Shown piece after piece: positions 5,108 through 47,993 of a DNA stretch of 64,000 nt. A program made the position numbers and the translations under genes. Location of the stretch: contig JAFECE010000011.1 in the NCBI GenBank assembly GCA_018242295.1, positions 124,001 to 188,000 of the forward strand, in the 5' to 3' direction. A model generated the notes under the pieces. That model saw only the letters and a program-made list of their open reading frames with translations. It was not told the DNA's origin and did not search any database. The stretch's first letter is position 1. Every line of letters begins with the position of its first letter. This stretch comes from Pseudomonadota bacterium. Its GTDB lineage: Bacteria > Pseudomonadota > Alphaproteobacteria > Rhizobiales > Hyphomicrobiaceae.

Positions 5108-6742
5108 GTGCTATCGACACCGGCAAAAGTGAGCGTTGTCCGCGTCGGATGGAGCCGTCACGTGCGTTTTCTTTTCAGGGATTGTGTGCTCGATCCCGAA
5201 CGGCGGGAGTTGACGCGCGCCTCCGAAGCGGTCGCCGTCGGTCCGCAAGTCTTCGATCTCCTCCTGTTCCTCGTCCGCAACCGCGATCGCGTCGTGAGCA
5301 AAGATGATTTGCTCGATGCCGTCTGGGACGGGCGCATTGTTTCGGAATCGACGGTCACCAGTCATATCAATGCCGTGCGCCGAGCGATTGGCGATACCGG
5401 AGACGCGCAGCAGCTAGTCAGGACGGTCCCGCGCAAGGGATTTCGCTTTATCGGCGATGTGAAAGAAGCGAATACCGCAAACGGCGCCTCGACGCTTCCC
5501 TCGGATTTACCCATTGATCTTGCGCTTCCCGAGAGCACTCCTCCGGTCAAGCCCTCGATCGCAGTTCTGCCCTTTCAAAGCTTGTGTGGCGACCCAGAGC
5601 AGGCGTATTTCGCGGACGGCGTCGTGGAGGAAATCATCACAGCGCTATCTCGTGTGCGCTGGCTATTCGTAATCGCCAGAAACTCGAGCTTCATTTATCG
5701 CGACTGCGCGTTCGACATAAAGCAGGTCGGACGGGAACTCGGCGTTGGTTATGTACTGGAAGGCAGCATGCGCAAGGCGGCCGGCCGCGTTCGCATCACC
5801 GGCCAGCTCATTGATGCAACGACCGGTGCTCAGCTCTGGGCGGAGCGTTTTGAAGGAACGCTCGACGACATATTCGAGCTTCAGGATCGCATCGCGGCCG
5901 GGGTTGCCGGAGCTATTGCCCCACGCGTCGAACTCGCCGAGATCGAACGCGCAAAGCGCAAGCCGACCGGCAGCCTCAATGCCTATGACTTCTACCTGCG
6001 TGGCCTCGCCCATGTGCATCGGGGGACGCGCGAATCGATTGAGCTGGCACTACCGCTGTTCCAAAAAAGTATCGAGCTCGACCCCGATTATGCGGCTGCC
6101 CACGCCATGGCGGGCTGGTGCTATTTCTGGCGCAAGATCAATGGCTGGTGTGCGGATCGCGACGCGGAAATTGACGAGGGTGCGCGGCTGGCACGTCGCG
6201 CCGTCGAATTGGGACGCGATGACGCTGTAGCGCTTACACGCGGCGCGCATGCTCTGGCACATCTTGCGGGCGATCTCGACGCGGGGATTGCCCTTCTCGA
6301 TCGTGCGGTCTTTCTCAATCCCAATCTTGCGTCTGCGTGGTTTCTCGGGGGCTTCCTCAGGACGTGGCATGGTGAGAGCGAGAGCGCCATAGCGCATTTC
6401 GAACGCGCCATGCGGCTCAATCCGCTGGATCCCGAACTCTATCGCATGCAGGCCGGTATCGGAATGGCGCATCTCTTTGCGGGGCGCATCGAGGCCGCAT
6501 CTCATTGGGCGGAATTGTCTTACAGGAACCTGCCGAGCTTTCTCATGGTGGTCGGGCTCATCGCGGCAACCCGCGCGCTTTCCGGGCGTATCACCGAAGC
6601 CCAACAGGCAATGGCCCAACTTCGCGAGCTCGATCCCTCGATCCGCATTTCGAATCTGAAGGATTGGCTACCCATTCGCCGCCAGAAAGACCTCGCTATC
6701 TTCTCGGACGGATTGCGCGTCGCGGGGATGCCAGAGCAATAG
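5108..6742 (+). CDS. winged-helix (OmpR/CadC-type) transcriptional regulator with TPR-rich C-terminal domain
   Basis: 544 residues from GTG 5108. Residues 15-115 form an OmpR/PhoB-type DNA-binding domain (Trans_reg_C). It is followed near residue 149 by KPSIAVLPF, the start of the adenylate-cyclase-associated/TolB-like module (FADGVVEEIITALSR), and then by several tetratricopeptide repeats (about 290-500). No membrane helix is seen. Such proteins are single-component regulators whose TPR part senses an unknown ligand or partner. It is transcribed away from the SDR gene at 4954, with a shared 153-bp intergenic region where its operator would be expected. Confidence 0.8.
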   Translation: MLSTPAKVSVVRVGWSRHVRFLFRDCVLDPERRELTRASEAVAVGPQVFDLLLFLVRNRDRVVSKDDLLDAVWDGRIVSESTVTSHINAVRRAIGDTGDAQQLVRTVPRKGFRFIGDVKEANTANGASTLPSDLPIDLALPESTPPVKPSIAVLPFQSLCGDPEQAYFADGVVEEIITALSRVRWLFVIARNSSFIYRDCAFDIKQVGRELGVGYVLEGSMRKAAGRVRITGQLIDATTGAQLWAERFEGTLDDIFELQDRIAAGVAGAIAPRVELAEIERAKRKPTGSLNAYDFYLRGLAHVHRGTRESIELALPLFQKSIELDPDYAAAHAMAGWCYFWRKINGWCADRDAEIDEGARLARRAVELGRDDAVALTRGAHALAHLAGDLDAGIALLDRAVFLNPNLASAWFLGGFLRTWHGESESAIAHFERAMRLNPLDPELYRMQAGIGMAHLFAGRIEAASHWAELSYRNLPSFLMVVGLIAATRALSGRITEAQQAMAQLRELDPSIRISNLKDWLPIRRQKDLAIFSDGLRVAGMPEQ

Positions 6743-30774: not shown

Positions 30775-30825
30775 GGGCTACTTTCGGGCTTTTTCGGCGA
30801 TTGACGAAGCATAGGCGCTCACTTA

Positions 30826-31000
30826 TCGATGGTGAGGACGGTCCCTCGCAAGAGGGTTCAAAAGGGAATGCGGTATCAACTCCGCAGCTGCCCCCGCAAC
30901 TGTTAGCGGTGAGCGCTGGCGATATGGCCACTGGGCAATGCCCGGGAAGGTCGCCAGATGCTGAGACCCGTGAGCCAGGAGACCTGCCGTCTCAGATCGT
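30826..31000 (+). ncRNA. cobalamin (adenosylcobalamin) riboswitch upstream of cobW
   Basis: The stretch holds the conserved elements in order: GGGTTCAAAAGGGAATGCGGT, CCGCAGCTGCCCCCGCAACTGT, GCCACTGGGCAATGCCCGGGAAGG, then the B12 box AGCCAGGAGACCTGCC at 30973-30988. CTGAGAC and GTCTCAG flank the B12 box and are followed by ATCGTTTTTC, so this part could act as a terminator-like switch. It lies about 180 bp before the cobW start and should lower cobW-N-G-H-I-J expression when B12 is plentiful. Confidence 0.93.
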
Positions 31001-31177
31001 TTTTCAAACCGTCGCCGGTGGGGCGAGAAAGGTTAACATGCACTTCAGCATCCTTCGCGCACATCATTGCGCACCAATCCAACATGCGCCTTCCCTCATT
31101 TCGCAAGCTCAGCTCGTGCCCGTTCCGGCCGAGCGATCCGCGCGCTATGGCGTCCCCAGATTTTCGGAGTCCTTCCA

Positions 31178-39642: not shown

Positions 39643-40866
39643 ATGAACGGGCGCTGGTTGTCCATCATTGGCATCGGTGAAGACGGCCGAAAAGGGCTGT
39701 CTCCGGCGGCCTCTGCCTTGATCGACGCGGCGGAGCTTGTGGTCGGCGGACGGCGTCACCTCGATCTTGTCGGCGATACGCCGGGAGAAAAGATGGAGTG
39801 GGAGAAGCCGCTCGAGGCGACGGCGACGACGATCCTGGCGCGGCGTGGAACGCCGGTGGCTGTGCTCGTGTCGGGCGATCCGTTCTGGTTTGGGGCGGGT
39901 GCGACGCTGGCGCGGTCGATACCCGTCGAGGACATGCAGGTCTTGCCCTCGCCTTCGAGCTTTTCACTTGCCGCTTCGCGCCTCGGCTGGCCGCTGCAGG
40001 ACGTGACGACGCTTGGGCTCAATATGAAGGGGCTGACACCCCTGATCCGTCGTCACCTGCATCATGGCAGGCGGATTTTGGCGCTGGCGCTCAACGGTGA
40101 AACGCCGCGTGAGGTCGCGAGGCTTTTGAGCGAAGCAGGGTTCGAAGAGAGCACGATCACCGTGATGGAAGCGCTTGGCGGCCCGCGCGAGCAGATCAGA
40201 AGCGTGCCCGCGAAGGACTTCGATTTTAGAGCCGTCGATCCGTTGAATATCATCGCGGTCGATGTCGTTGCGCGGTCTGGCGCGAGGCCTATTCCGTTCG
40301 TCGCCGGGTTGCCCGATCATTACTTCGAGAACGATGGACAACTGACCAAACGCGAGATCCGTGCGGTGACGTTGTCGTCGCTGCAGCCGGGCGCGGGACA
40401 GCTGCTCTGGGACGTCGGGGCGGGCAGCGGATCGATCGGCATCGAATGGCTGCTGGCGCATCCGGCGAATTCGGCGATTGGCATCGAGCGCGACGCTGAA
40501 CGCGCTGCCAGGGCCGTGCGGAACTCCGTCGCTCTTGGCGTGCCGCATCTCGACATTCGCCACGGTGCTGCGCCGGATGCGCTGAGTGGCCTCGCTCAGC
40601 CGGATGCGATTTTCATCGGTTGCGGTACGGACGGCGGCAATGTCATCGAGGCTTGCTGGAGGGCGTTGAAGCCGGGCGGACGCATCGTCGTCAACGCGGT
40701 AACGCTTGAATCCGAGCAGGCGCTGCTTGCGGCGCATCAGGGCCGCGGCGGAACGTTAACGCGCTTGAGCGTCGAACGGGCGGAGCCAGTTGGGAAACTC
40801 ACGGCGTGGCGTCCGGCAATGCCCGTTCTGCAGTGGGTTTCCGCAAAGGCCTATGGTGACGCATGA
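39643..40866 (+). CDS. cobL: precorrin-6Y C5,15-methyltransferase (decarboxylating)
   Basis: 407 residues. This is the two-domain CobL (CbiE-CbiT fusion). The N-terminal tetrapyrrole methylase shows LSIIGIGEDGRKGLSPAA and VLVSGDPFWFGAGATLARS. The C-terminal SAM-dependent domain (from about 240) shows LWDVGAGSGSIGIEWLLAHP. It methylates C5 and C15 and removes the C12 acetate carboxyl, giving precorrin-8X for CobH. It overlaps cobE by 4 bp. Confidence 0.95.
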   Translation: MNGRWLSIIGIGEDGRKGLSPAASALIDAAELVVGGRRHLDLVGDTPGEKMEWEKPLEATATTILARRGTPVAVLVSGDPFWFGAGATLARSIPVEDMQVLPSPSSFSLAASRLGWPLQDVTTLGLNMKGLTPLIRRHLHHGRRILALALNGETPREVARLLSEAGFEESTITVMEALGGPREQIRSVPAKDFDFRAVDPLNIIAVDVVARSGARPIPFVAGLPDHYFENDGQLTKREIRAVTLSSLQPGAGQLLWDVGAGSGSIGIEWLLAHPANSAIGIERDAERAARAVRNSVALGVPHLDIRHGAAPDALSGLAQPDAIFIGCGTDGGNVIEACWRALKPGGRIVVNAVTLESEQALLAAHQGRGGTLTRLSVERAEPVGKLTAWRPAMPVLQWVSAKAYGDA

Positions 40867-41249
40867 TTGCAATCGGCATGGGAGCAAACAGCTCCGCGCG
40901 ATCGGAAGATTTTTCCGAGGCTCTCGCCGCAGCGTGGCGCGAGGCGGGCAGGTGCGATGAGGTCGCGACGCTCGCCACCGCGACGTTTGCCGCTCACGTG
41001 CAAGCGGCAGCATTGAAATCTGGCGTTTCCTTTCGTCCGTGGATGTTAATTGCACTACGCGAAAGAAGCGCGGACTGCGTGACGCGTTCGGAGCGATCGC
41101 TGTCGCTTTTCGGCGTGACTTCGATTGCCGAGGCTGCGGCATTGGTGAGCGCGGGCCCGGGCTCGCATCTGATCATGCCGAGGCGCGTCATTGGCAGCAT
41201 CACGGTCGCGGCAGCGCAATCGGCGGCTCGCGGGGTACGGTCGAAATGA
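40863..41249 (+). CDS. cobE: CobE/CbiG C-terminal domain protein
   Basis: 128 residues, a small domain related to the C-terminal part of CbiG. The start [20 protein letters not shown] and the segment [25 protein letters not shown] are characteristic (the S-V-A-E-A-AAL region). CobE is required in aerobic B12 synthesis but its exact reaction is uncertain. It is coupled to cobL and cobM by 4-bp overlaps. Confidence 0.87.
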
Positions 41250-42001
41250 CGGTCCATTTTATTGGTGCAGGCCCTGGAGCCGCAGATCTCATTACGGTGC
41301 GCGGGCGCGATCTCATCGCCGGCTGCCCGGTCTGCCTTTATGCCGGGTCGCTTGTTCCGCAGGCTCTGCTGACGCATTGTCCGCCGGCGGCCGAAATTGT
41401 CGATACGGCGCCGATGACGCTCGATGAGATCGTCGAACGTATCGAGAAAGCGACGCGCGACGGAAAGGATGTGGCGCGGCTTCATTCCGGCGATCTGTCG
41501 ATCTGGAGCGCAGTCGGCGAGCAGCTTCGCCGTCTCGATAAGCTCAACATTCCTTATACGATTACGCCGGGCGTGCCGGCATTTGCCGCCGCATCAGCGG
41601 TACTGGCGCGCGAACTGACGCTGCCCGAGGTCGCGCAGTCCGTGGTGCTGACGCGGACATCGGGCCGGGCATCGGCTATGCCCGAACGCGAACAGCTCGA
41701 GACCTTTGCCGAAACGCGCGCGACGCTCGTCGTGCATCTCTCGATCCATGCGATCGCGGACGTCGTCAGGCGTCTTTTGCCTTTCTATGGACCGGAATGT
41801 CCGGCAGCTGTCGTCTATCGCGCGACGTGGCCGGAGGAGCAGATCATTCGCGGCACTTTGCAAACCATCGCTGCACAAACTGCCGAGGCGGGACCGGAAC
41901 GCACGGCGCTGATTTTGGTGGGCGAGGCGCTGGGGCGTGACGACTTCCGCGAGAGCGCGCTTTATAGCGTCGATTATCGCCGCCGTTTTCGTGGTGGCTA
42001 G
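41246..42001 (+). CDS. cobM: precorrin-4 C11-methyltransferase
   Basis: 251 residues from ATG 41246. It methylates precorrin-4 at C11. The chain starts [55 protein letters not shown] and [22 protein letters not shown] are typical of CobM/CbiF. It overlaps the cobE stop and is followed 18 bp later by cobB. Confidence 0.95.
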
Positions 42002-42019
42002 AAGAGTAGGCGGCTGACC

Positions 42020-43342
42020 ATGCCCGAAGCATTGACGTTGCCGCCAGGAGTGATGATCGCGGCGCCGCGCTCGGGTTCTGGGAAGACGACCGTGACGCTC
42101 GGCCTGCTACGCGCGCTCGTCCGGCGCGGCCTTGCGGTGCAGCCGTTCAAATGTGGGCCGGACTATATCGATCCGGCGTTTCACGCCGTGGCTGCGGGGC
42201 GACCGTCCTACAACATCGATAGCTGGGCGATGAGCTTCGATCGCGCTGCCGGTATTCTGTCGCGTTCATCGCTTGGGGCGAACGTCGTCGTTTGCGAAGC
42301 GTTGATGGGGCTCTTCGACGGCGTTTCCAAAGCTGGGGCCTGGGGCAATGGCGCCAGCGCCGACATTGCCGCGAAAACGGGCTGGCCCGTCATTCTCGTG
42401 CTCGATGTTTCCGGACAATCGCAAACGGCCGCTGCCGCTGCTCGCGGTTTTCAGGGGTTTCGCGACGGCGTGACGATAGCGGGGGTGATCCTCAATCGGG
42501 TGGGCAGTCCGCGCCATGTTCGTTTCGCGTCAGAGGCGCTGGAGGCCGCCGGGCTTCCGGTCGTCGGGGCCTTGCCGCGGGAAAAGAACGTCGTGCTGCC
42601 GGAACGGCATTTGGGGTTGGTGCAAGCCGAGGAGACGGCGGAGATCAACTCCCGGCTCGAGGCGTTGGCAGATTTTATCGAAACGCATGTGGACGTCGGA
42701 CGGCTTCTCCAGCTTGCGGTGTCGGGATCGGTGGCGGGAGGAGCACGGCCGAAGATCAAGCCACCTGCGCAACGTATCGCTCTTGCGAGGGACGCTGCTT
42801 TCTCGTTCGTCTATCCGCATCTGCTAGAAGGCTGGCGCGCGGCCGGCGCCGAAATCATTCCGTTCTCACCGCTTGCGGACGAAGCGCCCGATCCCCAATC
42901 CGATCTCGTCTGGTTGCCGGGCGGCTATCCGGAGCTTCATGCGGGGGTGTTGTCGAATGCCGGCCGCTTCAGGTCGGGCCTCACCGCGTTTGCGCAGTCG
43001 CGGCCCGTTCATGGCGAGTGCGGCGGGTACATGGCGCTGGGTGCCGGCCTCGTCGATGCCGAGGGCCGGCGTCACCAGATGCTGGGGCTTTTGGGGCTCG
43101 AAACCTCGTTCGCAAACCGGAAAATGAACCTCGGATATCGCCTAGCGGAGCTTGTCGCGGCCTGTCCGCTGGGTGGCGCCGGGGAGCTTCTGAGGGGACA
43201 CGAGTTTCATTACGCGAGCGTTCTGGCCTCGCCTGACGAGCCCCTCTTCCAATTGCGGAATTCAGACGGCGAAGCGCTGGCCGGGGGCGGCAGCCGCCGC
43301 GGTCAGGTCACAGGGTCGTTTTTTCATTTTATCGATAAATAA
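42020..43342 (+). CDS. cobB: hydrogenobyrinic (cobyrinic) acid a,c-diamide synthase
   Basis: 440 residues. CobB amidates side chains a and c using glutamine and ATP; in the aerobic route this precedes cobalt insertion by CobNST. The synthetase begins MIAAPRSGSGKTTVTLGLLRAL with FKCGPDYIDPAFH. The C-terminal amidotransferase has LPGGYPELHA and the nucleophile in GECGGYMALG. Last gene of the rightward unit. No clear terminator hairpin is seen after its stop. Confidence 0.95.
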   Translation: MPEALTLPPGVMIAAPRSGSGKTTVTLGLLRALVRRGLAVQPFKCGPDYIDPAFHAVAAGRPSYNIDSWAMSFDRAAGILSRSSLGANVVVCEALMGLFDGVSKAGAWGNGASADIAAKTGWPVILVLDVSGQSQTAAAAARGFQGFRDGVTIAGVILNRVGSPRHVRFASEALEAAGLPVVGALPREKNVVLPERHLGLVQAEETAEINSRLEALADFIETHVDVGRLLQLAVSGSVAGGARPKIKPPAQRIALARDAAFSFVYPHLLEGWRAAGAEIIPFSPLADEAPDPQSDLVWLPGGYPELHAGVLSNAGRFRSGLTAFAQSRPVHGECGGYMALGAGLVDAEGRRHQMLGLLGLETSFANRKMNLGYRLAELVAACPLGGAGELLRGHEFHYASVLASPDEPLFQLRNSDGEALAGGGSRRGQVTGSFFHFIDK

Positions 43343-43525: not shown

Positions 43526-43735
43526 ATGGGCACAGGCAGTGATCCCAAGCGAGGGGATTCAGCGACTATGCAGGCACCGTTACCGGCCGAGCTTCAGGGG
43601 CAGATTGGCCAGCGTTTGAGAGAGGCCTATATCGAACTCATTAACGAGCCAGTCCCCGATCGGTTCGTTGTACTTCTGCAAAAACTTAAACAGCGCGAGG
43701 AGGAGAGCAAGGAGGACGGTCGTGACGAAAAGTGA
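43526..43735 (+). CDS. nepR: anti-sigma factor NepR
   Basis: 69 residues. NepR holds EcfG inactive and releases it when phosphorylated PhyR binds NepR. The core IGQRLREAYIELINEPVPDRFVVLLQKL (about 29-56) has the two short helices and the PVPDRF element typical of the family. A later ATG (43568) would give 55 residues. It overlaps ecfG by 14 bp, so the two are translationally linked. A full nepR-ecfG-phyR module follows in one direction. Confidence 0.9.
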   Translation: MGTGSDPKRGDSATMQAPLPAELQGQIGQRLREAYIELINEPVPDRFVVLLQKLKQREEESKEDGRDEK

Positions 43736-44276
43736 CGACGACCTGCAAGCTCTCTTGATCGCGGCCGTTCCAAATCTGCGCGCATTTGCGAATTCGCTTT
43801 GCGGCGATCCGACGCGTGCCGACGATCTGGTGCAGGATACGCTCGTCAAGGCCTGGTCCAATCTGGATGGATTCGAAAAAGGCTCAAACCTGAAGGCTTG
43901 GCTCTTCACGATCCTGCGCAACACCTATTTCTCCGAACTTCGGAAACGCCGCCGCGAGGTCGAGGATGCGGACGGGGCGATGGCGGAGCGCATGTCGGTT
44001 CTGCCCGAGCAACACGTTCATATGGATCTCGTCGATTTCAAGAAAGCTTTCGGCGTCTTGAGCGACGACCAGAAGGAAGTTCTGCTGCTCGTCGGCGCGG
44101 AAGGCTTCTCCTACGAAGAGGCCGCCGAGATCACCAACGCTGCAGTCGGTACGGTCAAAAGCCGTGTCAATCGCGCCCGTGTGGCCTTGAACAAGGCCCT
44201 CGGTCTCGAAGCCGGCGAGAGCATCAATCCCAATGGCGAATTCGCCGGAATCACGCGAGTTGCCGGGCGAGGTTAG
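43722..44276 (+). CDS. ecfG: general stress ECF sigma factor EcfG (ECF15-type)
   Basis: 184 residues from GTG 43722, preceded by AGGAGAGCAAGGAGG. Region 2 spans CGDPTRADDLVQDTLVKAWSN (about 26-46); region 4 starts near residue 120 with LLLVGAEGFSYEEAAEITNAAVGTVKSRVNRAR. It lacks extra domains, as expected for EcfG. It directs RNA polymerase to GGAAC/CGTT promoters, of which several lie within the next 5 kb. Held in check by NepR. Confidence 0.92.
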   Translation: MTKSDDDLQALLIAAVPNLRAFANSLCGDPTRADDLVQDTLVKAWSNLDGFEKGSNLKAWLFTILRNTYFSELRKRRREVEDADGAMAERMSVLPEQHVHMDLVDFKKAFGVLSDDQKEVLLLVGAEGFSYEEAAEITNAAVGTVKSRVNRARVALNKALGLEAGESINPNGEFAGITRVAGRG

Positions 44277-44401: not shown

Positions 44402-45208
44402 ATGTCGATAGCCGAATCCATTGCTCCCCATTTGCCGTATCTGCGCCGCTATGCGCGATCGCTGACGGGAAGCCAACAGTCCGGCGACAACTACGTCGCG
44501 GCGGTACTGGAGGCGCTGATTGCCGATTCCGAGGCGTTCGACAAATCGATCGCTCCGCGTGTCGCGCTCTATCGCGCATTCACCAAGGTCTGGAATTCGC
44601 TGGCCGTAAATCGCGTGCCCGACGACGTGCGGCCACTCGATAAGCCGCTGCCGGAGCGACGGCTGGAATCGATCACGCCGCTTCCGAGGCAGGCGTTCCT
44701 TCTCGTTTCGGTCGAAGGCTTTTCCACGGCGGAAGCCGCTCAAGTTCTTGATGTCACTCCGGCGCACGTGACCGAGCTTCTGCAGATGGCGGGCGCCGAA
44801 ATCGCGGAGCAACTATCGGCGGATGTTCTCATCATCGAGGACGAACCGCTGATCGCGATGGATCTGGAAGCGCTTGTCGTCGATATCGGGCATCGCGTTC
44901 AAGGTGTCGCCCGTACGCATCAGGAAGCCGTTGCGGAGGTTGCCAAGAAGGCGCCGTCGCTCGTGCTCGCCGATATTCATCTCGCTGACGGAAGCTCGGG
45001 TCTCGAGGCCGTGAACGAAATCCTCGAGACGATCAGCGTTCCGGTTATTTTCATCACCGCATTCCCGGAGCGCTTGCTGACTGGCACGAAGCCGGAGCCG
45101 GTGTTTCTCATCACAAAGCCTTTCGAACCGGCCGTCGTAAAGGCGATGATCAGCCAGTCGCTCTTCTTTGGTCTAAGGTCGAAAAAGTCCGGTCAACGCG
45201 CGGCCTGA
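44402..45208 (+). CDS. phyR: stress-response regulator PhyR (sigma-like domain plus receiver)
   Basis: 268 residues. The N-terminal 130 residues mimic an ECF sigma factor (HLPYLRRYARSLTGSQQSGDNYV, then a helix-turn-helix-like stretch AEAAQVLDVTPAHVTELL). The C-terminal receiver has DVLIIEDEPLIAMDLEALV, the phospho-acceptor Asp in LADIHLADG and Lys in TKPFE. Phosphorylated PhyR sequesters NepR and frees EcfG. In many relatives phyR is divergent from nepR-ecfG; here it follows in the same direction 125 bp later. Confidence 0.94.
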   Translation: MSIAESIAPHLPYLRRYARSLTGSQQSGDNYVAAVLEALIADSEAFDKSIAPRVALYRAFTKVWNSLAVNRVPDDVRPLDKPLPERRLESITPLPRQAFLLVSVEGFSTAEAAQVLDVTPAHVTELLQMAGAEIAEQLSADVLIIEDEPLIAMDLEALVVDIGHRVQGVARTHQEAVAEVAKKAPSLVLADIHLADGSSGLEAVNEILETISVPVIFITAFPERLLTGTKPEPVFLITKPFEPAVVKAMISQSLFFGLRSKKSGQRAA

Positions 45209-45368: not shown

Positions 45369-45557
45369 TCAGGCCCGGCGTATGAAACTCGCGACGACGG
45401 AGATGATGAAGAGCACGATCGCGACCCAGAAGATGAGCCGGGCTCCTTCCATCGCTGTGCCGGCAACGCCGCCAAATCCCAAGGCAGCGGCGACAATCGC
45501 TACGATCAAGAAGACGATTGCGAAATAAAGGAGGTTTCCCAATTGGCTCCGATCCAT
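45369..45557 (-). CDS. DUF1328 family small membrane protein
   Basis: 62 residues with two membrane helices. The sequence [24 protein letters not shown] and [17 protein letters not shown] is characteristic of DUF1328 (YtjA-like). Function is unknown, but these small proteins are frequently stress induced. A perfect EcfG-type promoter lies 22 bp upstream of its start, so it is very probably in the general stress regulon. It is leftward, convergent with phyR. Confidence 0.88.
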
Positions 45558-45579: not shown

Positions 45580-45605
45580 AACGTGCGCCGAAACCGCGCG
45601 GTTCC
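45580..45605 (-). promoter_or_regulatory. EcfG-dependent promoter of the DUF1328 gene
   Basis: On the minus strand GGAAC (45605-45601), 17 bases, CGTT (45583-45580): an exact match to the EcfG consensus. Its -10 is 22 bp before the DUF1328 ATG, placing the gene directly under the sigma factor encoded 1.3 kb away. Confidence 0.8.
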
Positions 45606-45654
45606 GAATTACGGCGAACATGGGGCGGGATCGGCTTCGAATGCCGCGCAAAAA

Positions 45655-45762
45655 ATTAGAGTTCGCGCCGCTCGGGGGGAAGCGGTCGCGAACTCTTTTA
45701 AGTGATGCCGTACCCTGGGCCACGGGGGAGTGGGGAGGGAGTATTTGGGTACGGTCACAGTT
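45655..45762 (-). ncRNA. putative EcfG-dependent small RNA, GsrN-like
   Basis: A perfect EcfG promoter (45767-45791, minus) is followed by no protein gene but, about 60 bases on, by a strong intrinsic terminator: arms at 45659-45672 and 45681-45695, then TAATTTTTT on the minus strand. The predicted transcript of about 105 nt starts near 45760. Its 5' part folds as GTGACCGTACCC / GGGTACGGCATCAC (arms 45747-45758 and 45702-45715) around a C-rich loop with ACTCCCTCCCCACTCCCCC. C-rich loop, terminator hairpin, size, sigma control and neighbourhood match GsrN, the general-stress RNA of Caulobacter. Identity by homology is not tested. Confidence 0.7.
45659..45695 (-). terminator. intrinsic terminator of the putative stress small RNA
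   Basis: Stem of 14-15 bp with one bulge (GAGTTCGCGACCGCT / AGCGGCGCGAACTC read on the minus strand), loop of C and U-type bases, followed by TAATTTTTT. A TTTTA run lies on the other side, so it may work in both directions. No protein gene ends here, which is why a non-coding transcript is inferred. Confidence 0.75.
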
Positions 45763-45766
45763 GAAG

Positions 45767-45791
45767 AACGTAGCGGTTGCTCGTGGGTTCC
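45767..45791 (-). promoter_or_regulatory. EcfG-dependent promoter of the putative small RNA
   Basis: On the minus strand GGAAC (45791-45787), 16 bases, CGTT (45770-45767): an exact consensus match. The nearest leftward protein gene starts 210 bp away and has its own EcfG promoter beyond an intervening terminator. Confidence 0.75.
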
Positions 45792-45795
45792 AAAG

Positions 45796-46046
45796 TTTCC
45801 TCGAGTATTTTTTGCCCGCTTTTGGGGCGTGCAGATGGTTTGATTTCGATTCAAAATGCGCGGATGCGCGCAGGCGCAAGCTTGCTATGCCGTTGACTGA
45901 TAGCTTGGCCATATGCATTACGAGTTCGAAATGTCTGAGCAGCTTAGTCGTGGTATTGATAGAAAAAATAGCTTTTAGCAGGCGGTTGGCACGGCCGTTA
46001 ACTCGTGGCATTGCATCACTTTCCTTCGATCATTCCTAGCTGGGTT
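45796..46046. other. intergenic stretch before the sensor kinase gene
   Basis: No gene is recognised between the small-RNA promoter and the kinase start. The stretch is AT-richer than its surroundings (for example ATTGATAGAAAAAATAGC near 45955) and probably carries the promoter of the kinase gene. No GGAAC element is seen on the + strand. Confidence 0.5.
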
Positions 46047-47540
46047 ATGGGCCGCCAAAATATATCGCGGAGATTTGCAGCGTTCCTGACGTCGAATGCG
46101 ACGAGAACGTTGTTGGTTTGGGTTTCAATCGCCGTTCTTTCCGGGCTCGCAGCAATCGTAGCCTGGCAATGGACGGTGACGGCCGCAGATCGCGTTGCGC
46201 AGACGCTGCTCTATCAGCAAGGCTTGGCGAAGTGGCTGAGCGCCGCGCAGGATCTCGAGATCGCGCAACGCGGATATCTGCTCACACGAGATCCAGCTTA
46301 TCTCGCGTCCTACGAATCCGCGAAGAAGGCCGTGGACGGCATCCATACAGATTTCAAACGGATCGGAAAGAATAACCATCAACTGCTGGCTGCGATCGAG
46401 GAGGTTCACAAGGCGCAGCAGGAACACCTGTTGGCGATCGATAAGAGCATTGAAGCCGCGGCGAAGGATCCAAATCCACCGGGCCAGCTCGCTGAGAATA
46501 GTCTCGACATCGCGCTGTCGAACCGGTTGCGTGATGAGATCGCCGCCGCTAGTCGGCAACAACAACGTCTCTTCGAAGAGCGCGTCGCTCAATTTCACGA
46601 CCAAAGCTTCTGGCTTTTGATCGCGATGCTCGCGATCTTACTGGCCTGCGCCGCGTTGGCGATGGTTGCATTAATCCGTGAGCGACAACGCGTGGAAGCG
46701 CTTGAGATTACGGCATTGACGCTGACGTCAACAAACCGGTCTCTGGAAGCGCGAGTCAAGGCGCGGACCGAAGAGCTTGCGATCGAGCGCGATCGGGCGG
46801 AAGCGGAACGGGAGCGCGCTGAGGCGCTGCTCAGGGATGTTACGCACCGCATAGGCAATACGCTCTCGCTCGTCGTCGGCTTTATCAATCTTCACATCCG
46901 TCATACATCCGATCCGCGATCCTTGAAGACGCTTACGGGTGCGCGAGATCGCATTCATGCAATCGCGAGTGCACAGCGGCGGATCAATGTCGTCAACGAT
47001 CTCGAGCTCGTGCGCATCGACACGCTCATGCAAGCTGTTCTGGATGACGTGGCGGAAACGGCCGGGGAAAGCCGAATTCATTTGACGATCGAGGTGCCGC
47101 CGCTTCTGGCACCCGCGCAAGTCGCGACGTCGCTCTGCGTGCTGGCGCAAGAATTCGTCGTCAATTCTTTCAAGCATGCTTTCGGTGAGGACGGCGCGGG
47201 CGAAGTCAATGTCCAGTTGAAACAAACGGACGAAGCCGGCGCGGAACTGATTATCGAGGATGACGGCTACGGGATCGATGCCAGTCTGTATGCGGGGATC
47301 GCGAGTGATGCCGACAAAATGCTGCACGCAAACGCGAGCAATGGGGGCGAGGGACTGGGGACGAAAATAGCGGCTCTCCTGACGCGGCAGTTTTCAGGCG
47401 TCATCACCTATGAACCCGTGAGGCCGCGGCATGCGAGACCGGGCACGCGGGTCTCAATCAAATTGCCGGAGTTGACGCTCACGGTGCCGAGCGATGAAGT
47501 TTCAACCACCGAAAAAGAACTGAAGAGAACGTCCGCGTAA
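46047..47540 (+). CDS. CHASE3-domain sensor histidine kinase (HisKA_2 type)
   Basis: 497 residues from ATG 46047; an upstream GTG (46005) would add 14. A membrane helix (about 18-38), a periplasmic CHASE3 domain with AQRGYLLTRDPAYLASYESA, and a second helix (about 188-208) are followed by a coiled-coil stretch and a HisKA_2 core with phospho-acceptor His in LLRDVTHRIGNTLSLVVG. The ATPase domain shows EFVVNSFKHAF and DDGYGID. Kinases of this class often phosphorylate PhyR. Its 3' end overlaps the opposing receiver gene by 39 bp. Confidence 0.87.
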   Translation: MGRQNISRRFAAFLTSNATRTLLVWVSIAVLSGLAAIVAWQWTVTAADRVAQTLLYQQGLAKWLSAAQDLEIAQRGYLLTRDPAYLASYESAKKAVDGIHTDFKRIGKNNHQLLAAIEEVHKAQQEHLLAIDKSIEAAAKDPNPPGQLAENSLDIALSNRLRDEIAAASRQQQRLFEERVAQFHDQSFWLLIAMLAILLACAALAMVALIRERQRVEALEITALTLTSTNRSLEARVKARTEELAIERDRAEAERERAEALLRDVTHRIGNTLSLVVGFINLHIRHTSDPRSLKTLTGARDRIHAIASAQRRINVVNDLELVRIDTLMQAVLDDVAETAGESRIHLTIEVPPLLAPAQVATSLCVLAQEFVVNSFKHAFGEDGAGEVNVQLKQTDEAGAELIIEDDGYGIDASLYAGIASDADKMLHANASNGGEGLGTKIAALLTRQFSGVITYEPVRPRHARPGTRVSIKLPELTLTVPSDEVSTTEKELKRTSA

Positions 47541-47993
47541 TGGAAAGGCCTTGTCGAACGAGCCGACTTGCCAGCGCGCGGCATAAGCGGGCGAAAGCTC
47601 TAAGGCCCGAGGTTTAGGGCACTGCGAACTCCCCATTTGCATGCAGTCAACGACGAACATTATCGCCGATTTCACCGCGCGTTCGGAATAGGGTTTGACG
47701 ATGGTGCCGCAAGCAAACGAGAAGTCTTGCGGTATTTGCTGTGGATTGGATGTCGTGAAAATCACAGTGGCATGTGTCTCTTCACAGAGGTGCCGCGCGA
47801 CGACCGGTCCGGTTATCCCATCGCTCAGATGCACGTCGACGAGCGCTAGATCGCAACTTGTCATCTGCGCGAGCATCAGGGCCCGACGTGATGATCCGGC
47901 AATGCCGATAACGTGATGGCCCAGGTCCGTGATGATCGCTTCCAGTTCGTCAGCGACGATCGGTTCATCCTCGGTGATTAGAATCTTCACCAC
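47502..47993 (-). CDS. single-domain response regulator (receiver only)
   Basis: 163 residues. The receiver domain fills the first 120: ILITEDEPIVADELEAII, phospho-acceptor in LALVDVHLSDG (Asp53), and the conserved Lys in IVKPYSE. A tail of about 40 residues has no known motif. No output domain, so it would act through protein contacts or as a phosphate sink in the PhyR phosphorelay, as known for similar proteins. A perfect EcfG promoter lies upstream. Lies between the two kinase genes. Confidence 0.87.
   Translation of the reverse strand: MVKILITEDEPIVADELEAIITDLGHHVIGIAGSSRRALMLAQMTSCDLALVDVHLSDGITGPVVARHLCEETHATVIFTTSNPQQIPQDFSFACGTIVKPYSERAVKSAIMFVVDCMQMGSSQCPKPRALELSPAYAARWQVGSFDKAFPLRGRSLQFFFGG

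Follow-up and report, generated by a model that had tools for sequence, protein, structure and literature searches.

The window, i.e. the whole stretch of 64,000 nucleotides analysed here, comes from a genome of the genus Hyphomicrobium and includes a general stress locus. On the plus strand lie nepR, coding for the anti-sigma factor (43526-43735; PF18557; its true start may be further downstream), ecfG, coding for the general stress sigma factor (43668-44276; Sigma70_r2 and r4; its true start is probably downstream of the ORF start), and phyR (44402-45208; PF22029, PF22233 and PF00072). They are followed by the minus-strand gene of a DUF1328 small membrane protein (45369-45557; Pfam PF07043), preceded by an EcfG-type promoter, GGAAC-N17-CGTT (45580-45605, minus strand), by the plus-strand gene of a CHASE3 histidine kinase of the HisKA_2/HWE type, identified by domain search (46005-47540), and by the minus-strand gene of a single-domain response regulator (47502-47993), with a G-rich start region and an EcfG-type promoter at 48050-48026. 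A further HWE kinase gene, on the minus strand, comes after the response regulator. Elsewhere in the same genome, outside the window, a second NepR-like match was observed (G000:C10:1706-1807). The window also contains a cobalamin riboswitch at 30822-31005 (plus strand, 127 bits), and the ORFs at 39643-43342 are presumably cobalamin biosynthesis genes.

Separate from the promoter of the DUF1328 gene, a GGAAC-N16-CGTT promoter (GGAACCCACGAGCAACCGCTACGTT, spacer N16) is found on the minus strand at 45791-45767, followed by a unit of about 105 nt. The predicted small RNA spans 45657-45762, its 5' end being placed about 5-8 nt past the -10 element. When the unit is folded alone, a 5' hairpin (45702-45758) is predicted, whose arms, at 45758-45747 and 45715-45702, form a stem of 12 bp with a 2-nt bulge around a C-rich loop of 31 nt (45716-45746). 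The loop has the core CCCCCGUGGCCC, contains four runs of at least three C, and includes an inner 4-bp hairpin, CCAC/GUGG, which presents UCCCCC. The predicted intrinsic terminator (45650-45697) is a long, bulged hairpin with C6 in its loop, followed by a T-run. The sequence-only reading of this DNA had described the same promoter, a strong terminator within about 105 bp of it, and a 5' stem around a 31-base loop with three C-runs. The promoter is confirmed by the sequence, hairpin and T-run fall inside 45697-45650, and the arms and loop size agree; only the number of C-runs had to be corrected.

The predicted folding energy of the whole unit is -47.7 kcal/mol, compared with a mean of -23.6 (sd 3.0) for shuffles of the same sequence (z -8.06), and none of 200 shuffles was as stable. 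The terminator is absent from the list produced by a simple terminator scan, probably because of the bulged base in its hairpin. Chance could account for the promoter motif by itself: the window has 6 matches to GGAAC-N15-18-CGTT, where 2.8 are expected, and 8 of 100 shuffles have as many, while GGAAC-N16-CGTT matches 18 times in 1.224 Mb of the same genome, against 5 to 38 for seven control motifs. It rises above chance because it is conserved and positioned at the stress locus. No Rfam (release 15) family reached its gathering score on the RNA, and relaxing the search to E values up to 10 gave two chance-level matches.

Conservation and covariation in Hyphomicrobium

The unit was found in 17 of the 22 genomes placed in Hyphomicrobium. 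Fourteen copies were identified by BLASTN among 99 genomes of the family, the source genome included; all belong to Hyphomicrobium, which contributed 18 genomes to that draw. A pattern made from the loop core matched in 14 of the 22 genus genomes, at one locus apiece, and the same pattern read backward gave no match. Three divergent copies were added, one by a covariance model (G010, E 7e-9) and two by reading the phyR loci (G097 and G100). Covariance model R1 finds all three in place, with E values of 2.4e-10, 1.1e-5 (L143) and 2.2e-4 (L145), and they show the same anatomy, behind a GGAAC-N16-NGTT promoter (L108, L143 and L145). With both models, R1 and R2, the RNA is the only strong match in its own genome. 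In all 17 carriers the RNA gene follows phyR and is read from the other strand, in keeping with the position beside nepR-ecfG-phyR that had been claimed for it.

In the alignment of the 14 BLASTN homologues, GGAAC, GTT and the N16 spacing are invariant. The 12 columns of the loop core are invariant as well, as is CCCCC in the terminator loop. The sequence-only reading had named loss of the promoter, the C-rich loop or the terminator in relatives as evidence against itself; all three are conserved instead. It had also suggested aligning the intergenic region of relatives in search of compensatory changes, and these are present in both the 5' hairpin and the terminator: 97.5% of 355 stem cells are paired, and 9 of 26 pairs are changed on both sides. 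Neither value was reached by any of 500 shuffles, and sliding the partner strand by 1-3 columns reduced pairing to 31-48% (at most 48.2%). The inner hairpin CCAC/GUGG is identical in all 14 copies, and is therefore uninformative on covariation. In two of the divergent copies (L143 and L145) UCCCCC can be enclosed by a CCCC/GGGG pairing; the folding program picks this hairpin only for L145.

An 81-aa ORF with a TTG start spans the RNA and is open in its own genome, and the unit might thus encode a small protein. This is extremely improbable, because loop and stems differ in length by single bases among the 14 relatives, which breaks any frame, while the stems covary; no conserved start with a ribosome site was seen in these relatives.

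Alternatively, the RNA might belong to the DUF1328 gene, as its 5' leader or as an attenuator; in 11 of the 14 loci that gene follows it on the same strand. In those same 11 loci, however, DUF1328 has its own GGAAC-N17-CGTT promoter, past the terminator, and the unit is closed by a long terminator with a T-run. Furthermore, loci L004-L006 keep the RNA intact, with neither DUF1328 nor the N17 promoter within the approximately 1.5 kb fetched. A role as a leader is accordingly very unlikely, and, given the separate promoter and the loci that keep the RNA in the absence of DUF1328, the RNA is most likely a gene of its own.

In the remaining five genus genomes (G033, G058, G099, G101 and G102) no such unit was seen in 5.6-11.5 kb around phyR, two of these stretches (L155 and L157) ending at contig ends. 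The best R1 match at their phyR loci has an E value of 0.17, and the loop-core pattern is absent genome-wide. Their PhyR is only 55-57% identical to that of the source genome. These loci (L153-L157) represent a second kind of stress locus, with several EcfG motifs and no C-rich RNA seen; in L153-L156 an EcfG-type site precedes a DUF1328-like frame on the plus strand, about 4.4-4.9 kb upstream.

Similar units beyond the genus

With R1, 297 genomes from the order and 337 from the class were searched, and the only matches outside the genus were weak. Those in nine genomes of other genera of the order (E 1.4e-4 to 0.05) were not counted; only one of them (L111) has an EcfG-like site (TGTT) just upstream. 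Four further matches in the class (E 7e-4 to 0.003) were also set aside: three (L232, L234 and L235) have no EcfG site and one (L233) ends at a contig end. In Oricola (L071) a match of 28.5 bits (E 1.3e-4) stands behind an EcfG promoter with N16 spacing; since the antisense strand of the RNA scores 22 bits there, we take it as a unit of the same kind, with homology not proven. R2 found nothing significant outside Hyphomicrobium, and is an insensitive model, reaching only E 5.4 on the divergent copy in L158.

For units of similar anatomy, a set of 80 named phyR loci was scanned (L016-L095). These rank best among at least 530 confirmed phyR matches and come mostly from Hyphomicrobiales (L017 is from Elstera); the end of phyR was set at locus position 5800 in most of them. 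An EcfG motif combined with a fold-based terminator was found at 83 sites in 49 of these loci. When at least 8 C within 12 nt were required, 24 units in 23 loci were retained, and 20 of them, in 19 loci, lie on the strand opposite phyR, 196-2810 nt downstream of its end; the others are in L024, L055, L065 and L067. Eight control motifs gave 0, 0, 1, 0, 1, 0, 1 and 6 C-rich units in the same loci. The six belong to CGGAA, a control whose 209 sites include 174 that coincide with a true GGAAC motif displaced by one base. The EcfG motif is also commoner overall (477 sites in the first scan, against 10-81 for five controls), as stress loci would lead one to expect; per site, C-rich units in that scan number 20 for 477 EcfG sites, and 1 for 254 control sites.

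Three units were added beyond the scan, in L016, which the scan had missed, L048 (weaker) and L085; the last two were the only ones seen on examining 19 phyR loci with no strict-scan match. All together, at least 22 of these best 80 loci carry an EcfG-promoted C-rich hairpin unit downstream of phyR, in Xanthobacteraceae, Salinarimonas, Microvirga, Oricola, Aquamicrobium, Pelagibacterium, Rhizobium, Hyphomicrobium and others. In Microvirga (L073, L075 and L079) the first unit is at +196 to +198, and about 2 kb beyond phyR comes another hairpin unit behind an EcfG promoter, with CCCCC in its loop. When 12 of the loci were compared with Rfam, only a tRNA reached the gathering score.

Candidate targets

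The proven target of GsrN of Caulobacter is katG, with whose G-rich leader it pairs (Tien et al. 2018, PMC5869019). A KatG family match was found in 8 of the 22 genus genomes and in only 6 of the 17 RNA carriers: the source genome, G094 and G096, among the 14 BLASTN carriers, and the three with divergent copies, G010, G097 and G100. A run of four G within 220 nt upstream of the script-called katG start occurs in one of 7 leaders (G094, at -137), and not in that of the source genome. katG was therefore rejected as the target, and, because the loop core is invariant in genomes devoid of katG, the conserved job of the RNA must be another one.

General complementarity of the loop to start regions was also rejected. 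Among 354 start regions, 8 pair with the loop over at least 8 nt, compared with a mean of 5.0 (sd 2.9) for shuffled loops; over at least 6 nt, 65 of the 354 pair, against 30 mid-gene stretches, and shuffled loops average 72. The order of bases in the loop is thus immaterial in this test.

The start region of the response regulator gave one of the two longest loop matches in the 354-gene sample (9 nt). Of 11 orthologues, 9 have the EcfG-type promoter and 10 carry CGGGG ahead of the start. Among the distinct start regions of the other genes of the locus, CGGGG is found in 0/6 for phyR, 0/11 for DUF1328, 0/6 and 1/6 for the kinases, 1/2 for nepR and 0/1 for ecfG. When the duplex energy obtained with the loop of the source genome was compared with that of the reversed loop, it was better in 5 of the 11 and worse in 6, and the conserved G-runs may be just ribosome sites. 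The response regulator of the stress locus is nevertheless the best single lead.

Exported proteins were considered as well, with signal peptides called by a heuristic that makes evident errors, one of its false positives being a sugar-nucleotide dehydratase-like protein. GGGGG ahead of the start was associated with them in the discovery sample (11/18 vs 34/373, p 2.5e-7). In an independent 760 kb the same test gave 7/28 vs 92/654 (p 0.096), while looser motifs were enriched: GGGG (22/88 vs 77/594, p 0.004), GGGG[AT] (16/47 vs 83/635, p 0.0004) and CGGGG (p 0.009), but also GGAGG (p 0.013) and GAGGA (p 0.03), whose odds are similar. The enrichment may come from more accurate start calls in exported proteins. 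Exported proteins are not claimed as targets, GGGGG having failed in the independent sample and the looser motifs being confounded. On contig C2 of the source genome, genes with GGGG in the start region are modestly enriched for exported proteins, and so are those with GGAGG.

Proposed mechanism and relation to known RNAs

The small RNA gene is real and conserved, and very probably functional in the general stress response. We read it, with a probability of about 0.8, as a small RNA that acts in trans, depends on EcfG and uses its C-runs against G-rich start regions. Under stress, PhyR releases EcfG from NepR, a step of the pathway that is already established; RNA polymerase carrying EcfG would then transcribe the RNA from its own promoter. 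The RNA would probably be held by Hfq, whose gene is present in the genome, leaving exposed the C-runs CUCCCUCC and UCCCCCGUGG in the 5' loop, and CCCCCCG in the terminator loop. These could pair with G-rich translation starts of mRNAs, altering translation or stability, in the way of GsrN and of anti-Shine-Dalgarno RNAs; repression at G-rich ribosome sites would be the likelier sign of regulation. The coupling of EcfG to a small RNA, proven in Caulobacter and Rhizobium etli, would be extended to Hyphomicrobium by the covariation and the invariant loop core. Such RNAs escape Rfam-based annotation, since this RNA has no match in Rfam 15 and none of the candidates in the other loci scanned reaches a gathering score there.

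CCUCC, the anti-Shine-Dalgarno core, is present in the 5' region of all 17 genus copies. The RNA could accordingly be a stress-driven anti-Shine-Dalgarno RNA, similar to alpha-r14/NfeR1 (or to the cuckoo RNAs), blocking ribosome sites by its CCUCC loop rather than acting as GsrN does on katG. The alpha-r14 RNAs carry CCUCCUCCC in unpaired regions, as three identical motifs, and silence by pairing at start regions, and NfeR1 is controlled by LsrB and NtrC (PMC10746234); C-rich unpaired regions carrying CCUCC are a shared feature. The RNA described here, however, contains no CCUCCUCCC and has no Rfam match, its EcfG-type promoter differs from the LsrB/NtrC control, and promoter and position near phyR are those of RNAs like GsrN and ReC64. 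The immateriality of loop order in the start-region test also speaks against it. We regard this alternative as possible, if somewhat unlikely; mechanistically, it overlaps with the trans-acting EcfG-dependent RNA preferred here.

The sequence-only reading had proposed equivalence with GsrN. GsrN is described as a sigma-T-dependent RNA of about 100 nt with a C-rich 5' loop, processed to a stable 5' isoform and stabilised by Hfq, and its homologues as usually lying near the stress locus (PMC5869019). Promoter, size, exposed C-rich 5' loop, terminator and locus all fit: a near-consensus EcfG promoter with N16 spacing precedes the 14 copies and the 3 divergent ones, the ecfG-phyR locus is adjacent, and the C-rich 5' loop, predicted by folding, is conserved among relatives. 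Equivalence is supported only in part, by locus and anatomy; no homology to GsrN itself was detected, and the katG pairing is not conserved. A pattern built from the published target letters of GsrN matched in 5 of 337 genomes; of three matches read (L122, L123 and L125), two were discarded and only L122 looks like GsrN, a unit beside a phyR, carrying CCCCCCG. Neither R1 nor R2 matches this unit, the sole GsrN-like locus compared. It is on the strand of phyR, whereas the Hyphomicrobium RNA is on the opposite one and, unlike GsrN, has a C-rich terminator loop too, with no conserved katG target.

A tentative extension, which we consider unlikely, is that a fast-diverging family of EcfG-driven RNAs occupies the phyR loci of Hyphomicrobiales, its members alike in promoter, in location and in having loops rich in C (commonly CCCCCG or CCUCC) but not in sequence, with the stress-locus response regulator and other G-rich starts, and not katG, as targets in Hyphomicrobium. 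The RNA would then add a second tier of feed-forward control to the general stress response.

In a largely open-access literature search, no such RNA was found described for Hyphomicrobium. In Rhizobiaceae, R. palustris and B. diazoefficiens, GsrN-like genes have been predicted beside the stress locus (eLife 2018, PMC5869019); these predictions are based only on an EcfG site and stress-locus position, and do not include Hyphomicrobium. The Xanthobacteraceae units of L019 and L022, and the similar ones of L021 and L026, may be of the sort predicted there. ReC64 of R. etli is a small intergenic RNA of 88 nt, downstream of phyR-tcrY, with an EcfG consensus promoter; its EcfG1 dependence was seen by gusA fusion, and 5' RACE put its start where the promoter predicts (Jans et al. 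2013, PMC3892343). Rhizobium units such as those of L081 and L086 lie at a like place; L081 folds into three hairpins, against two in the Hyphomicrobium RNA. Being small, intergenic, behind an EcfG promoter and downstream of the phyR region, the Hyphomicrobium RNA resembles ReC64, and it fits the kind represented by ReC64 and the predicted GsrN-like genes.
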